A stretch of 64,000 nucleotides of DNA from Pseudobdellovibrionaceae bacterium. GTDB taxonomy: Bacteria > Bdellovibrionota > Bdellovibrionia > Bdellovibrionales > Bdellovibrionaceae. Location of the stretch: assembly GCA_019637955.1 (NCBI GenBank), contig JAHBUS010000001.1, forward strand, positions 744,001 to 808,000, written 5' to 3'. Made by a program: the position numbers and the translations under genes. The notes under the pieces were generated by a model. The model was not told where the DNA came from, searched no databases, and saw only the letters and a program-made list of their open reading frames with translations. Below, in pieces: positions 26,986 to 36,898 of the stretch. Position 1 is the stretch's first letter; every line of letters starts with the position of its first letter.

Positions 26986-27405
26986 TCACCCTTCCCAGTC
27001 AAGATCAATGGCCCGCGTTGCAACCTCAGGTTGTTTCGTGTCGTTATTCATTTCGAGCTTGCGGCTGGTGAGATCGAGACGGTGCGCCAAACCCTTGGCC
27101 AGAGCCAAAACGACGGGTGGCGTCTTTGTGAAGATCTCTTCACAAGCCGACTTTTCGAACATCAGCACTTCAACTTCACTGGCGGCTCGCGCCGAGGCCG
27201 TGCTGTCGATTCCCAAGAGAATGGACATCTCGCCCAAAAACTGCCCGGGCGTGGCGACGCCCAAGAGAAGTGGACCCGTGCCAGAATTTTTAAGGATTTC
27301 AACGCGTCCGGAGCGGATCACGTAAAGGCCTTCGGCGGTCTCCCCTTGCTTGAGAATGTAGTCGCCGAAATTGAACTTCAAAACTTTCGCGGTCGAGTAA
27401 AACAT
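26986..27405 (-). CDS. Stand-alone cyclic-nucleotide-binding-domain protein
   Basis: 139 residues, essentially one CAP-type effector domain with no DNA-binding domain or kinase. Visible elements are GDYILKQGETAEGLYVIRSGRVEIL and PGQFLGEMSILLGIDSTASARA, which aligns with the phosphate-binding cassette. Glu59, which normally contacts the ribose, is present; the Arg that contacts the cyclic phosphate is replaced by Ser68. The domain may therefore bind cAMP weakly, bind another ligand, or act only as a protein module. The ATG has CAGGAG upstream. It precedes the secreted protein gene at 26447. Confidence 0.8.
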   Translation of the reverse strand: MFYSTAKVLKFNFGDYILKQGETAEGLYVIRSGRVEILKNSGTGPLLLGVATPGQFLGEMSILLGIDSTASARAASEVEVLMFEKSACEEIFTKTPPVVLALAKGLAHRLDLTSRKLEMNNDTKQPEVATRAIDLDWEG

Positions 27406-30234: not shown

Positions 30235-30347
30235 GCACTCGTCCGTCCCTAGACTTTTGTCACCTCTTCGATGGTCCAAGTCAAGACATCGCCACTTTTG
30301 ACCGATGTTGAGACGAGGGAGTTACGTCCCCATTTTGGAGGTTCTTG

Positions 30348-32186
30348 GTGTTCGCACGATGGGATCGCATCATACTTGCAGGAATCATTTCATTCCTGTG
30401 TTATGGCGCGACTTATTATTGGTACCGCTCAACGGAGAAGACGGAGGTCTCTCAAGTTGAACGCGCGCCCATCGCGTACCTCACCAAGCTCGAGAACGAT
30501 GTGGAGCGCCGTCCGGTGACCCGCCAAATCTGGCAAGGTCTGCAGAACGGCGATCCCGTTTTTGCCGGTGAAGCCGTGCGCACCTCGAGCCAAGGCACCG
30601 CGATTTTACAAACCGCCGATGGCGGCCGCACGATTGAGCTGGATCCCGACACCCTGATTGTGATCAGCCATCAAAACAACGAGGTCGCTCTCGATTTGAT
30701 GGATGGACGTTTGTTCGTCAATCAAAATGAAAAAACCGACGCCGCCAAACTGCCCGCGCTGGTCCTGCGCAGCGCCGATGCCGAGGTGGATCTCAGCCGC
30801 GCCTCCGCGAAACTCTCCAAGGGTTCCGGAACACGCGTGGATGTTGAAGTCACCAAAGGTTCGGCCAAAATGCAAGGGGCTCAGGGCGTTCAAGAGATTG
30901 CGCAAGGCAAACGCACGGTCGTCGGCCAAAGCGTGGGTGAGCACCTGACCAGCTTGCAAATCGTTTCGCCTTTGGACTCATCGACCATCTACGTGAATCC
31001 CGATCAAGAAGCGCCCGTGCACTTCGCCTGGAAAGGCATTCCCAACGGCGCCGAAGTGCGCATCGAAACCGGCACGTCGAGCAAAGACCTGAAGCCCGCG
31101 GGCGACTGGGTTCCGGCGGGGCAAGGCTTCTTGGACGCGATTCTGCCGGCGGGTCGCTACATCTGGAAGCTCTCGGCGCGCATGGCCGGCTCCACGTCGG
31201 TCTTTACCGAAGGCCCGATCGAAAGCTTCCGCGTGGTTCGCACCGATCCGGCCGAACTCCTGTACCCCGACGACCAAACCGTTCTGCAAACCAAAACCAA
31301 CGAAGACTCTTACGTCTTCAAATGGAAGCGGCCGACCGGCGTGGTCTCGCAAAAAATCGAGTTCGCGCTCAATTCGGATTTTCAACCGTTGTTCCGCGAC
31401 GTCAAGGTTCTGGCGGGCGACACCATTCAACTTGAAATGCCTCCCGGCTCTTACTTTTGGCGTGTGTCTTCGATGTACGAAGGCTTCAGCCAGCCCGTGA
31501 TGAGCCGGCCGTTTACGTTGACGCTCTTGCCCCCCGTGGTTCGCGTCGATGTGGCCTTTACGAATTTCAAACACAATGACGTTCTGACTTATGTCGGCGC
31601 GCCCGTCGCCGTCTTCCAGTGGAAGACCAACCGTCCCGACGTCGTTCAGCGCTACGTCTTTAGATTGGCGCAGACGACCGAGGCCCTTCGCGGTCCCGCG
31701 AGCGACGAGAAGCTCAAGCGCATCGAGACCAAGCAGACTCAAGTCACACCCGAGATCACGCGGGGCGGACGTTACCTCGCCATGGTCGAAGCTTATGACG
31801 AAAACGACAAGCTCGTCGGCAAATCCGACGTGCAAGCTCTTTCGTTCGAGCCCAAGGCCGCCATCCGTGCGCCTCAGTTCGAGCCGTTGGGTCAAGATCT
31901 GCTCGCCGACAACCAAGGCGCGCTCTCTCTGATCTGGAGCTTGGTCGACGGCGCCAAAGAGTATTGGCTCACGCTCAAAGACTCTTCCGGCAAAGAGATT
32001 CAGAAATCGCGCTTCCTGGGCACTTCGGCCAAGCTGCAGTCGCTGTTGCCCGGAGAATACAAAGTCGAGATCTACGCCATCGACCAGTATGGCCGCCGGT
32101 CCAAAGAAGCCGCCGCACGCCGCGTGGTGGTGCCGACTTCGAGTGGTCTCAACGCCCCCAAACTGAAGAAAGTGAAGGTCCAGTGA
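30348..32186 (+). CDS. Membrane-anchored FecR-domain protein with Fn3-like repeats
   Basis: 612 residues from the GTG at 30348 (GGAGG 6 bases upstream; the TTG one codon earlier is too close). A short cytoplasmic start and one membrane segment (IILAGIISFLCYGATYYWY) lead to a FecR domain (about residues 45-200: GDPVFAGEAVRTSSQGTAIL, VALDLMDGRLFV, GTRVDVEVTKGSAKM). Three or four Fn3-like beta-sandwiches follow, with the recurring fAWK/FKWKRP...ILPAGRYIWKL pattern. FecR proteins usually relay signals across the envelope to sigma factors; no sigma factor is near here. It heads a three-gene unit, coupled by TGATG to the beta-barrel gene. Confidence 0.8.
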   Translation: MFARWDRIILAGIISFLCYGATYYWYRSTEKTEVSQVERAPIAYLTKLENDVERRPVTRQIWQGLQNGDPVFAGEAVRTSSQGTAILQTADGGRTIELDPDTLIVISHQNNEVALDLMDGRLFVNQNEKTDAAKLPALVLRSADAEVDLSRASAKLSKGSGTRVDVEVTKGSAKMQGAQGVQEIAQGKRTVVGQSVGEHLTSLQIVSPLDSSTIYVNPDQEAPVHFAWKGIPNGAEVRIETGTSSKDLKPAGDWVPAGQGFLDAILPAGRYIWKLSARMAGSTSVFTEGPIESFRVVRTDPAELLYPDDQTVLQTKTNEDSYVFKWKRPTGVVSQKIEFALNSDFQPLFRDVKVLAGDTIQLEMPPGSYFWRVSSMYEGFSQPVMSRPFTLTLLPPVVRVDVAFTNFKHNDVLTYVGAPVAVFQWKTNRPDVVQRYVFRLAQTTEALRGPASDEKLKRIETKQTQVTPEITRGGRYLAMVEAYDENDKLVGKSDVQALSFEPKAAIRAPQFEPLGQDLLADNQGALSLIWSLVDGAKEYWLTLKDSSGKEIQKSRFLGTSAKLQSLLPGEYKVEIYAIDQYGRRSKEAAARRVVVPTSSGLNAPKLKKVKVQ

Positions 32187-33793
32187 TGAGATTCTTCGCT
32201 CTTCTGTTTCTTCTCATGACCGTGCTTCCTCCGGTGGCCTGGGCCTCAAAAGCCGAGCGTTCGGTCACGGTGGAGTGGGAGCCGATCGTCGGCGCCGTCA
32301 CTTACGACGTCGAAGTGAAACGAAAAAAAGTGAACGATCAGGTTGAGCAGACCTACCGCACCAACGTCAGCACCGAAGCATGGACACTGACCTTGGAGCC
32401 GGGCGAGTACGAGCTTCGCGTGCGCTCGCGCGACCGCCGTAAAGTTCCCGGAGATTGGTCGCCGGCCGAAGACTTCCAAGTGAACCTGGCCGCGATCGAA
32501 CTCGAATCACCCGCCAATGATTTTAAACTTCTCAGCGCCAAACCCGAGGAGAAAAAAGTCGAATTCAAGTGGAAACCCGTTCCCGCGGCCGACTTCTATT
32601 CTTTCGAAATCGCGTCCGATGACGGCAAAGTGAAGATCACCAAATCGGTCAACGAGACGGCCTTGGAGCTTCCGCTCCCCGTCGCCAAGAATTATGTTTG
32701 GAAAGTGCAAGCCTCCACCAAGTTCGGACTGACTTCGAAAGCGGGCGAAGCCAAATTCTCCCTCTGGGCCGAACAACTCGCCGAGCCCGTGGTGAGCGTG
32801 GCGAAAAACGGCTTCGTGCGCGAGATCTCTTGGACCCGTCCGCTCTATGCCGAAGGGTTTGATTATATTTTAAGCCAATGGGACCCCGAGAAAAAAGAAT
32901 GGGTCAAGATCGCCAAAGAAAACCTGGCGAAGAGCTCGCAGATTGATTTCGACCCGTCTTGGAAAGGCGGCTCTTACCGCCTGATCTTGCGGGCGGCGGC
33001 GTTCAACCGCGTGTCGTCGAAATCGACCGTCACCAACTTCCGCGTGGTGAATGGCGACCGCTCTCCCGCCGCCGAGGCCAATGCGACTTTGCGTTTGTCG
33101 ATCAACCGCACCTCGGGGCGTTCGGGCTTCTTCGGCATCGCGAGCTACTTGATGACGCAAATGAATTATTCCGGCGTGAACTCCGACAATGGCGGGAGCG
33201 CGAAACTCAAAGTCGATCTGCCGAACAACTTCGGCGGCACCGGGCGCCTGGGTTTGGGCTATTTATCGGAAAACTCGCCTTGGGGCGGCCTTTCGATCTT
33301 GGATTTGAGCGGCTTCGTCGTTGGCGATTCAAATCCGACGTTCGCGTCGCTCGAGTTCTCGGCCCTTTACCGCAAGAAGTACGGCGAACGCAGCGAAGTG
33401 CGCCACCACCTCGGCCTTTACTACAAAGAATTGCCCGAGTTGATCGCCGCCAACCTGAACAAGATCGACCGGATCGATAAGATCGTCACGGCCGGTCCCC
33501 ACTACGGCGTTGAGTACTGGTACGCTTGGGATCCCCAGTTGGGTTTCCAAGCCAACATGCATCTGTACCAATCGATGCTGTCGATCAAAACGCCGAACGG
33601 AAACGATCAAAAATCAACGATGAGCTACCAGTTGGGCCTGATGGGAAGCTACCGCCTGTCCGATCGCATGACCGGTCTGGCGGGATACGCCTACCGCAAA
33701 GAATCGGCGGCTTACACCTCCACCAATGGCTCGAACAACACGATCGATCTGATGGGCCACTACTTGAACTTCTTCTTGGAGTGGGCGCTATGA
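32186..33793 (+). CDS. Secreted Fn3-like protein with C-terminal outer-membrane beta-barrel
   Basis: 535 residues with a signal peptide (MRFFALLFLLMTVLPPVAWA). Residues about 25-300 hold three Fn3-like domains (VTVEWEPIVGAVTYDVEV, EFKWKPVPAADFYSFEIA, EISWTRPLYAEGFDYIL) like those of the upstream FecR protein. From about residue 310 the sequence becomes an amphipathic strand pattern (GRLGLGYLSENSPWGG, EFSALYRKKYG, HHLGLYYKEL, YQLGLMGSYRL) ending in FFLEWAL, consistent with a beta-barrel of about ten strands in the outer membrane. It starts inside the FecR stop and ends inside the cyclase start (ATGA). A sensor or anchor spanning the periplasm is inferred. Confidence 0.75.
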   Translation: MRFFALLFLLMTVLPPVAWASKAERSVTVEWEPIVGAVTYDVEVKRKKVNDQVEQTYRTNVSTEAWTLTLEPGEYELRVRSRDRRKVPGDWSPAEDFQVNLAAIELESPANDFKLLSAKPEEKKVEFKWKPVPAADFYSFEIASDDGKVKITKSVNETALELPLPVAKNYVWKVQASTKFGLTSKAGEAKFSLWAEQLAEPVVSVAKNGFVREISWTRPLYAEGFDYILSQWDPEKKEWVKIAKENLAKSSQIDFDPSWKGGSYRLILRAAAFNRVSSKSTVTNFRVVNGDRSPAAEANATLRLSINRTSGRSGFFGIASYLMTQMNYSGVNSDNGGSAKLKVDLPNNFGGTGRLGLGYLSENSPWGGLSILDLSGFVVGDSNPTFASLEFSALYRKKYGERSEVRHHLGLYYKELPELIAANLNKIDRIDKIVTAGPHYGVEYWYAWDPQLGFQANMHLYQSMLSIKTPNGNDQKSTMSYQLGLMGSYRLSDRMTGLAGYAYRKESAAYTSTNGSNNTIDLMGHYLNFFLEWAL

Positions 33794-35628
33794 TGAGAAT
33801 TCCCATCTCGGCCAAAATGATCTTCTTCGTGGTGTCCTTTCTCGTCGCCGCGACGATGATTTTTGCCAAGCAGAGTTCGGAACTCTTCGAGTCGGTTCTC
33901 GTCAGCCGCGAGGAGTACTCCAACATGGTTCAGGCCGCCGCCAAGGCGAGCGAAGTCGACCGGCTGGTGTCATCGGCCGTGGACCGCGCTCAAGTGATCG
34001 GCGCGCTGATGGTAAAGCATTCTTTGCAGAAAAAGGCCGACACGGGCGAGGTTTTGCTCAACTTCAACCGCGACAAGTCGCTCTTCGCGATCGACGTGTA
34101 CAAAGTAAACGGTGATCAATTCGAGTTCGTCAGCCGCCTCACCAAAAAAGAACTCCTCGAGCGTGATAAACTGACGGTCGATTTCGTCGATCAATTGCGA
34201 AAGACTCAAAACTTTCCGATGAAAGACGTCATCGCCAAGAAGATCGTCATCCGCAACAGCTCGTACCCCAAGGGCCGTCCGCTCGTGACTCTCGGTTTAC
34301 CGCTCGTTCGTGACGACCGCGATCAAGTCACTTACCTTGCCCTGGCCGATTTGGAATTTAGCTACTTGCAAAAGCCCTTCTCCGAAGAGAGTGAGCGCGT
34401 GCAATTCGTTTTCGACCAAAACGGCGAGCTGCTCGCGCATCAAGACGAGCGCCGCGCCTTGGCCCGCCACTCGCTAGCTTCGCACCCACTCTTCTTGAAA
34501 GCGAAGAACGACGTGATCCCGCGCCGTCAAATTCAGTTTGTCGATCCGGACTTCGAGGCCGAGATGATCGGCGCTTACGTTCAATCGCCCGCGTACGGCC
34601 TGACGGTCGTGGCCCAAACGCCGAAGTCGGTGATCTTGGAGCCGGCCCGCGACATGCGTCGCCAGGCGTACTACATCGCCGGCGTCGTGATCTCGGTGGC
34701 GATCTTCTGCCTCTTCTTGTTCTCGATGACCCTCACCGGTCCCATCGAAACCTTGGCGGACTTCGTCCGTCACGTTTCGCGCGGCAATTTCGACGTGAAA
34801 GTCCGCAGCCGCATGAAGTTCTTGTTTCCCGATGAAGTCACCGATCTCGCCAACGCGTTCGATCAGATGACCGAGGGCTTAAAAGAGCGCGACAAAGTGA
34901 AAATGCTTTTCCGTAAATTTCAAGGCACGAAAATCGCCGAGGCGCTGCTTAAAAACGAAGTGGGCGGCCAAGGTCAAAACCGCGAAGCGACCATCTTGAT
35001 GATGGACATCCGCGGCTTCACGAGCTTCTGCGAAACCCACCCGCCCGAGCAGGTCGTCGAGATGCTCAACGAGTACTTCGAAGTCATGGTCGGCGTGATC
35101 AGCCGGAACAACGGCGTCGTCGATAAATTCATTGGCGATGCGATCCTCGCCGTTTGGGGCGTGCCCCAATCTGATGACAACGACGCGCAGAATGCCGTCA
35201 AGGCCGCGCTCGAAATGCGCTCGGCCCTGAAAGAACTCAATGACTGGCGCCTGGCGCGCGGACAAGAGGCGATCTACGTCGGCATGGGTTTGCACTCAGG
35301 TCCCGTGGTTTCGGGCTCTATCGGTTCGACCGAGCGTCAAGAGTACACGGTCATCGGCGATGCCGTGAACATCGCCGCCCGCATCGAATCCGCGACCAAA
35401 CTCTTTGGCCAGGATCTTTTGATCAGCGAGTCGGTTCACCAGAAAGTGGGCAGCCATTTCGCGGTGGAGTCCGCCGGGCAAGCCGAAGTGAAGGGCAAAG
35501 CCGAACCTTTGGCTCTCTTCCGAGTAAACGGTTATTTGGACGGCGAAACCGGGGCCACGGTGGAAGTCTCCACTCCCTACAGCGAGTACGCCGCCGCCAC
35601 GGACGAAAAAGCCAAAATCGCGAGCTAA
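33790..35628 (+). CDS. Membrane-bound class III adenylate cyclase with periplasmic sensor and HAMP
   Basis: 612 residues. First membrane segment about 8-26, a large periplasmic dCache-like sensor (about 27-295), second segment about 297-318, HAMP (TLTGPIETLADFVRHVSRGNFDVKV), then the catalytic domain (about 395-575). Metal-binding Asp406 (MMDIRGFTS) and Asp450 (FIGDAILAVWG), adenine-specifying Lys446 (VDKFIGD) and Thr520 (YTVIGD), and transition-state Asn527 and Arg531 are all present, so an active cAMP-forming homodimer is expected. It is the last gene of the FecR/barrel/cyclase unit and overlaps the barrel gene by ATGA. A guanylate cyclase is unlikely given the Lys/Thr pair. Confidence 0.9.
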   Translation: MMRIPISAKMIFFVVSFLVAATMIFAKQSSELFESVLVSREEYSNMVQAAAKASEVDRLVSSAVDRAQVIGALMVKHSLQKKADTGEVLLNFNRDKSLFAIDVYKVNGDQFEFVSRLTKKELLERDKLTVDFVDQLRKTQNFPMKDVIAKKIVIRNSSYPKGRPLVTLGLPLVRDDRDQVTYLALADLEFSYLQKPFSEESERVQFVFDQNGELLAHQDERRALARHSLASHPLFLKAKNDVIPRRQIQFVDPDFEAEMIGAYVQSPAYGLTVVAQTPKSVILEPARDMRRQAYYIAGVVISVAIFCLFLFSMTLTGPIETLADFVRHVSRGNFDVKVRSRMKFLFPDEVTDLANAFDQMTEGLKERDKVKMLFRKFQGTKIAEALLKNEVGGQGQNREATILMMDIRGFTSFCETHPPEQVVEMLNEYFEVMVGVISRNNGVVDKFIGDAILAVWGVPQSDDNDAQNAVKAALEMRSALKELNDWRLARGQEAIYVGMGLHSGPVVSGSIGSTERQEYTVIGDAVNIAARIESATKLFGQDLLISESVHQKVGSHFAVESAGQAEVKGKAEPLALFRVNGYLDGETGATVEVSTPYSEYAAATDEKAKIAS

Positions 35629-35632
35629 GCCC

Positions 35633-36898
35633 TTAGCTTTTTGGGCTCAGGCCGTCTTTGAGCGTGAGCGCGAAGGCCCGCAGGGCCGGGATCAATCCCA
35701 CGAGCGTCCCGATGAAAACCGCCCCCAGCAAAAAGAGAAACTCAGGCCCGGTGATCGCCGCGCCCGCAAGGTACACGCCGAAACTCTGCGCGAGCCATTT
35801 CTCCAAGATCAAAAAGCCCGCGAGCTGAACCAACGTTCCGAGCGTCGCGCCGAGAATCGAAATCAAAAATGCTTCGAGCACCAAGAGCGAAAGAACGTGA
35901 CCCGGTCCCGCACCCATGGCACGCAAGATCGCCATCTCCCGGCGCCGCTGCTCCAGCAGGCTTAAAAGGGCAATCAGCATCGCCGTCATCCCCACCGCGA
36001 GCACCATCCACGAAATTGCCTTGAGACTCTTCTCGACGTAACCCATCATGTGCCACAGCTCGGCCAAGGCCACGCCGGGAATGATCGCCATCATCGCTTC
36101 GCTCTCGTAGGTGTTGATCGAGCGCTGCAAACGCAGAGTTTCAATGCGCGATTTTGTGCGCAAGAAGAAGGAGGTGATCTGATCGACCTTGATCGCCTCT
36201 TTTTGAATTTGGTCGGGGCCGATGGCGGTTTCGCGCGTGGGCGCGGCCCCGTCTTTCCAATCCATGTGAATCGCTTCCATCCCCTCGAGCGTGATGTACA
36301 GCGATTGATCGAGTGCGGTCCCGGTGGGTTTCATGATCCCGACAACGGTGAACGGCTTGTCGTCATGCATTTGAATGCCCCGGCCCGAGGTCACGCCGTG
36401 AGCGATGACCACTTTTTGTCCGAGCTTGTAGTTGAGGGACCTTGCGACCTCAGCTCCCAAAACGACATCCCAAAGGCCGACGGCAGGGACGCCTTCGCTC
36501 ATCTCGACCTTGCGGTCGCCACGGTAACGGTAATGCTCGTAGAAGTTGGCATCAGTTCCCACCGTGCGAAAGCCGCCGTGTCCATCTCCAAGCGAATACG
36601 GGATGGTCCATTCAACCTGCGGTTGATTTTTCCAGTGCTCGTACGACTGCCATGAGACATTGGCGGTCGCCGATCCCATATTGAAGACCGTGTACAAAAG
36701 CAGATTTAGCGGTCCGCTGCGCGCGCCCACGATCAAGTCCGTTTGACTGATTGCCTGCGTGAACCCGTCTTCGGCTCCACGGCGAAGGCGTTCGACCGAA
36801 AGAAGCAGCATCACGCTCAAGGCGATCGAGAGAATCGTGAGTCCCGTGGTCAAGCGGCGGTTGCGAAGTGAGGCCCAGGCCAGACGTAAGATTACCAT
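35633..36898 (-). CDS. FtsX/MacB-type ABC transporter permease
   Basis: 421 residues. One N-terminal membrane segment (TTGLTILSIALSVMLLLSV), a large MacB-like periplasmic domain (about 40-280), then three segments near the C-terminus with QRRREMAILRAMGAGPGHVLSLLVLEAF, the coupling-helix region typical of FtsX-family permeases. It pairs with the ATPase encoded just upstream (7-base overlap). Such type VII ABC systems do mechanotransmission rather than import; with a DUF3299 partner the job may concern metal handling or envelope lipids (inference). It is convergent with the cyclase gene, 4 bases apart. Confidence 0.85.
   Translation of the reverse strand: MVILRLAWASLRNRRLTTGLTILSIALSVMLLLSVERLRRGAEDGFTQAISQTDLIVGARSGPLNLLLYTVFNMGSATANVSWQSYEHWKNQPQVEWTIPYSLGDGHGGFRTVGTDANFYEHYRYRGDRKVEMSEGVPAVGLWDVVLGAEVARSLNYKLGQKVVIAHGVTSGRGIQMHDDKPFTVVGIMKPTGTALDQSLYITLEGMEAIHMDWKDGAAPTRETAIGPDQIQKEAIKVDQITSFFLRTKSRIETLRLQRSINTYESEAMMAIIPGVALAELWHMMGYVEKSLKAISWMVLAVGMTAMLIALLSLLEQRRREMAILRAMGAGPGHVLSLLVLEAFLISILGATLGTLVQLAGFLILEKWLAQSFGVYLAGAAITGPEFLFLLGAVFIGTLVGLIPALRAFALTLKDGLSPKS

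Follow-up and report, generated by a model that had tools for sequence, protein, structure and literature searches.

Gene organization and domain structure of the locus

The analyzed window, a stretch of 64,000 nucleotides from a Pseudobdellovibrionaceae genome (contig JAHBUS010000001.1, positions 744,001 to 808,000), harbors three overlapping open reading frames on the + strand, at 30348-32186, 32186-33793 and 33790/33793-35628. In window coordinates, the following features were assigned.

30348..32186 (TTG at 30345 possible), + strand: ORF1, predicted inner-membrane-anchored FecR/Fn3 protein, 612 aa (PF04773 in 15 of 22 members of the orthologue alignment; AlphaFold2 pLDDT 85)
30360..30434, + strand: predicted N-terminal transmembrane helix of ORF1, residues 5-29 (AlphaFold helix; hydrophobic N-terminus in orthologues)
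30474..30947, + strand: predicted FecR-like periplasmic beta domain of ORF1, residues about 43-200 (PF04773 in orthologues; AlphaFold)
30957..32132, + strand: Fn3-like domains of ORF1, residues about 204-595, probably four, the number being inferred (AlphaFold strand pattern; Foldseek to Fn3 strings)
32154..32183, + strand: C-terminal tail of ORF1, APKLKKVKVQ, candidate docking peptide (A603, P604 and K607 invariant; pattern in 42/49 versus 5/691, see below)
32186..33793, + strand: ORF2, three Fn3 domains and predicted outer-membrane beta-barrel, 535 aa (signal peptide by eye, AWA-S; AlphaFold; Foldseek)
33125..33787, + strand: predicted beta-barrel domain of ORF2, about 10 strands, residues 314-534 (AlphaFold; Foldseek 2x56 Pla, 9nh1 porin)
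33790..35628 (start at 33793 favoured), + strand: ORF3, dCache(-like)-HAMP-class III cyclase, 612 aa (Pfam; orthologue alignment)
34720..34884, + strand: HAMP domain of ORF3, residues 311-365 (29.5 bits versus cut-off 25)
34981..35505, + strand: class III cyclase catalytic domain of ORF3, residues 398-572 (Guanylate_cyc E=3e-29; D406, K446, D450, T520, N527, R531)

The reading frame of ORF1 might start with the GTG at 30348, situated 6 nt after a GGAGG motif, or with the TTG at 30345, and ends at 32186. The TGATG and ATGA joins described in the initial annotation were found: ORF1 and ORF2 have a single A in common at 32186 within TGATG, and ORF2 and ORF3 meet in ATGATGA, which permits an ORF3 start at 33790 or 33793. 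Because the orthologues of ORF3 begin with MRIPIS, the start at 33793 is favoured, giving a one-base overlap with ORF2. Scans for promoters and terminators gave signals at chance level only. At the distal end, the stop codons of the cyclase gene and of a convergent MacB/FtsX permease gene are 4 bp apart (35628-35633). About 3 kb upstream of the unit, a gene on the - strand (26986-27405) encodes a single-domain cNMP-binding protein (PF00027, 68 bits) and possibly a cAMP receptor; it was dropped as a system partner after no match was found in the cyclase loci of relatives.

The AlphaFold model of ORF1 displays the transmembrane helix followed by the beta domain and the Fn3-like domains, and Foldseek matched it to Fn3 strings. 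Pfam FecR had no match at E<=0.1 to ORF1 itself, but is detectable in the orthologues mentioned above (best 1.5e-9). Since the helix begins already at residue 5 and leaves almost no cytoplasmic part, the model contains no cytoplasmic N-terminal anti-sigma domain. The model of ORF2 (pLDDT 88) consists of three Fn3-like domains (residues 25-290) in front of the barrel strands; Foldseek returned fibronectin, the omptin Pla and a Legionella porin, and the ORF2 relative at locus L175 scores above the OMP_b-brl cut-off. ORF2 is thus predicted to adopt a membrane beta-barrel fold, and its predicted location is the outer membrane, in line with the initial annotation, which had proposed a barrel sharing Fn3-like modules with ORF1. 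The NCBIfam family LIC11435 (NF047756) matches ORF1 and ORF2 weakly, with 19-23 versus a cut-off of 380 bits, i.e. far below cut-off and confined to the Fn3 region.

A FecR-like periplasmic domain together with an outer-membrane barrel recalls FecI-FecR-FecA signalling, for example FoxA/FoxR (PMC11637429), where an outer-membrane barrel cooperates with an inner-membrane-anchored FecR-type protein with periplasmic domains. Hence, classical cell-surface signalling via a distant sigma factor, with the cyclase as an incidental neighbor, has to be considered, but is very improbable. Besides the missing anti-sigma domain, the 887-kb contig is devoid of any match to sigma-70 region 2 (Sigma70_r2), which extends the earlier observation that a sigma factor is lacking nearby, and the approximately 10-stranded barrel of ORF2 is not a TonB-dependent receptor and has no TonB receptor match in Pfam. 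The linked output is instead a cyclase. The LIC12756/LIC12757 system of Leptospira likewise includes a FecR-type transmembrane regulator, part of which is extracytoplasmic; however, the anti-sigma part of that FecR-like system is an N-terminal cytoplasmic domain (PMC13118517), which is not present in ORF1.

The catalytic domain of ORF3 is recognized by Guanylate_cyc with 102 bits (curated Pfam cut-off 21.9). The class III signature is complete, comprising the metal-binding aspartates D406/D450, the substrate pair K446/T520 and the transition-state residues N527/R531. All six residues of the previously claimed active site are correctly placed under the 33790 numbering and unchanged in 29 relatives. 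Among class III cyclases, a pair such as K446/T520 is of the ATP type; ORF3 is predicted to make cAMP and may do so in the cell. The claim of a class III cyclase with periplasmic sensor stands for the catalytic and HAMP domains, which both exceed their cut-offs, whereas the sensor is matched by dCache_1 with only 22.8 bits (curated cut-off 45) and is therefore referred to as dCache-like. A CHASE2 sensor is absent from ORF3 according to Pfam.

Conservation and linkage of the three genes

Most of the 40 related genomes examined contain a full-length relative of the cyclase, and nearly all loci of the window's family whose contig reaches upstream keep the FecR-barrel-cyclase order with close spacing. 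A contig profile search with a 10-row barrel alignment placed Bdellovibrio bacteriovorus kdesi and Pseudobdellovibrio among the carriers of the cluster. This family synteny by itself proves little, because the flanking genes, GreB upstream and MacB/ABC/DUF3299/HisS downstream, are often kept, too. In the genus Pseudobdellovibrio (g3; G002, G021, G066-G071, G073-G075), the barrel profile was detected in only 3 of 14 genomes, which might reflect loss of the system. The cluster is also present on CALQIT020000073.1, titled as a Streptomyces griseus bin, a title that looks wrong. The identity of the cyclase with HD100 bd1116, one of four annotated cyclases (PMC6717892), was weighed from map position only, and the link was not established.

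Separate searches of 192 genomes of the phylum with a barrel and a cyclase profile gave hits in 56 and 54 genomes, respectively, and in 51 genomes with both, i.e. the barrel/Fn3 gene is present in 51 of the 54 cyclase-bearing genomes (Fisher p = 7e-37, which ignores relatedness and is indicative only). Altogether 49 cyclase loci lie less than 10 kb from a barrel/Fn3 match, 28 of them co-directional and belonging to the family, while 17 divergent and 4 convergent loci fall outside of it. With a FecR profile constructed for this analysis from cyclase-linked members, 53 of the 55 evaluable loci show FecR less than 5 kb from the cyclase (26 co-directional, 19 divergent, 8 convergent); in two loci (L056, L215) it is not near the cyclase, and three more loci are cut by contig ends. 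The cyclase tree requires five or more switches between these three arrangements. In 10 of the 15 distant genomes selected with the barrel profile (L171-L185), the gene neighbors a Cache-HAMP cyclase, and in three others a HAMP-SpoIIE or HAMP-kinase gene. Near the other class III cyclase of the window's genome (contig C12), a FecR gene was not found.

Conserved synteny alone, in a part of the chromosome that rearranges slowly, could be invoked for the family, in which the flanks are retained as well, but it fails to explain why the linkage remains where these flanks are gone and the cyclase is divergent or convergent, after about five rearrangements; hence, this explanation appears extremely improbable. 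The check on conserved gene order showed that the linkage holds phylum-wide, whereas the strict order is limited to the window's family. The notion of one coupled unit is strongly supported in the functional sense by a linkage that survived these changes of arrangement.

The linkage to the cyclase is stronger for FecR than for the barrel. In G186, G258 and G280, no barrel match was found nearby, yet FecR resides beside the cyclase, and in G003 and the second copy in G011 (L049, L058) FecR and cyclase genes are adjacent without a barrel, implying that these loci can do without a barrel. At L156, L163 and L149 (the latter searched over 3 kb only), a FecR-barrel pair has no cyclase in its vicinity. 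Such pairs, like the cyclases lacking a FecR neighbor (L056, L215), count against a relay to the cyclase.

FecR/Fn3 paralogues and the C-terminal tail of ORF1

The window's genome contains further FecR/Fn3 genes next to HAMP enzymes. On contig C8, a paralogue overlaps a PAS-Hpt-HATPase gene and is divergent from a HAMP-SpoIIE gene (L073:4962-10828), and on contig C2 two FecR/Fn3 genes with barrel-like C-termini are each followed by a HAMP-SpoIIE gene (L077:717-5055, L219:7023-11434). Likewise, relatives encode FecR proteins near HAMP-HATPase or HAMP-SpoIIE genes. Several of the paralogues, among them those at C2:717-2903, L182 and L183, appear, as judged from their sequences only, to end in barrel-like C-termini; homology of these tails in the fused paralogues to the ORF2 barrel was not demonstrable (hhalign probability 7% and below). 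At several loci (L106-L112, L114, L115), the Cache-HAMP protein has no FecR neighbor. A recurring set at L101, L102, L104 and L105 consists of Cache-HAMP-HATPase, REC-HATPase, REC, a glycine-rich secreted protein and a convergent FecR protein.

The C-terminal tail of ORF1 is a candidate docking peptide. The pattern [AP]P-x(5-7)-[VI]-x ends 42 of 49 split-type FecR proteins, i.e. those followed by a separate barrel gene, versus 5 of 691 background ORFs, a contrast that is descriptive only because the pattern was written after the sequences were viewed. It is missing from the FecR proteins beside SpoIIE or kinases.

These neighborhoods bear on two further explanations of the locus. Cache domains usually bind small molecules, hence the barrel could be a pore for a small ligand that is bound by the dCache domain of the cyclase, with the FecR/Fn3 protein as a periplasmic scaffold and without any protein relay. 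The occurrence of the cyclase without barrel (L049, L058) or alone (L056) fits such uptake and sensing; however, linkage that is stronger for FecR than for the barrel does not, and a mere scaffold leaves unexplained why FecR/Fn3 genes lie next to those for HAMP-SpoIIE and HAMP-kinase proteins. We regard this possibility as unlikely. Somewhat less probable still is a structural tether, in which FecR/Fn3 and barrel proteins hold both membranes or guide an envelope process that cAMP controls or accompanies, while the cyclase is not regulated by the pair. The modelled Fn3 string between inner-membrane helix and outer-membrane barrel and the FecR-barrel pairs without nearby cyclase would agree with a tether, but the partners in this association are specifically HAMP enzymes of the sensor type, covering three classes of output.

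Discussion

Collectively, the domain make-up, the intact predicted active site, the phylum-wide linkage through rearrangements and the repeated occurrence of FecR/Fn3 genes next to further HAMP output enzymes support a trans-envelope unit, in which a column of barrel and FecR/Fn3 protein would relay the surface state to the dCache-like-HAMP cyclase and change cAMP production; we assign this reading a probability of about 55%. The outer-membrane barrel with its periplasmic Fn3 arms and the inner-membrane-anchored FecR/Fn3 protein would form a column spanning the periplasm, whose state might be set by a surface ligand, by contact or by envelope spacing. Probably by way of the FecR domain, this state would reach the dCache-like domain of the cyclase in the periplasm, and cAMP production would change. 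The cluster would thus probably let cell-surface events set an internal signal level. The binding of FecR protein and barrel, the contact of FecR protein and cyclase, the direction of signalling and the stimulus are inferred parts of this relay. The Fn3 modules shared by the two envelope proteins, put forward earlier as the reason for their binding, are a weak argument alone, because Fn3 is generic; the barrel-like C-termini of the paralogues and the conserved tail of ORF1 provide better, though indirect, evidence.

A more general version can be proposed tentatively and with less confidence: a modular receptor, composed of an inner-membrane FecR/Fn3 chain joined or docked to an outer-membrane barrel, might drive interchangeable dCache-HAMP outputs, namely cAMP cyclases, SpoIIE-type phosphatases and histidine-kinase-like proteins, in outside-in direction without sigma factors in Bdellovibrionota. 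The recurring neighbors suggest such a reusable envelope module.

The initial annotation as a candidate new system has to be restricted. FecR genes clustered with CHASE2 adenylate cyclases have already been reported for Campylobacterota, where a CHASE2 adenylate cyclase/phosphodiesterase/FecR/TPR cluster was proposed from its clustering to form one pathway (PMC9239204). Both systems combine a class III cyclase with periplasmic sensor and a FecR-domain envelope protein, but they differ in the sensor (dCache-like and HAMP instead of CHASE2), in the partner (a Fn3/beta-barrel protein here) and in the architecture of the FecR protein, which carries a transmembrane anchor and Fn3 domains. Moreover, phosphodiesterase and TPR genes are absent from the unit, and Pfam detected none among ten proteins scanned from 27-38 kb of the window. 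ORF3, with its dCache-like sensor, resembles the dCache-HAMP class III adenylate cyclases in the order of its domains and in its catalytic residues; what sets it apart is the genetic partnership with FecR/Fn3 and barrel proteins. Literature searches for Bdellovibrio with FecR or fibronectin type III, and for FecR with SpoIIE and HAMP, returned nothing on the cluster; in PMC12034629, adenylate cyclase appears only as a two-hybrid reagent. The cluster is best described as a real, conserved and uncharacterised candidate for envelope-to-cAMP signalling. A cAMP output is plausible in Bdellovibrio, because a documented cAMP receptor exists there, the EAL phosphodiesterase Bd1971 (PMC6717892).

Little is known about how predatory Bdellovibrio perceive surface contact and adjust their internal nucleotide signals. 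If the relay is real, it would widen FecR-type signalling beyond sigma factors to include second messengers, and in another phylum. The barrel, its inner-membrane partner and the cyclase offer three defined genes to delete in laboratory strains, and cAMP would serve as the readout. Regarding the cyclases themselves, those at loci L060-L063 possess long C-terminal extensions, with GYF_2 detected in L060 (66 bits) and L061 and L063 aligning there, and the cyclase match in G064 contains one in-frame TAA.
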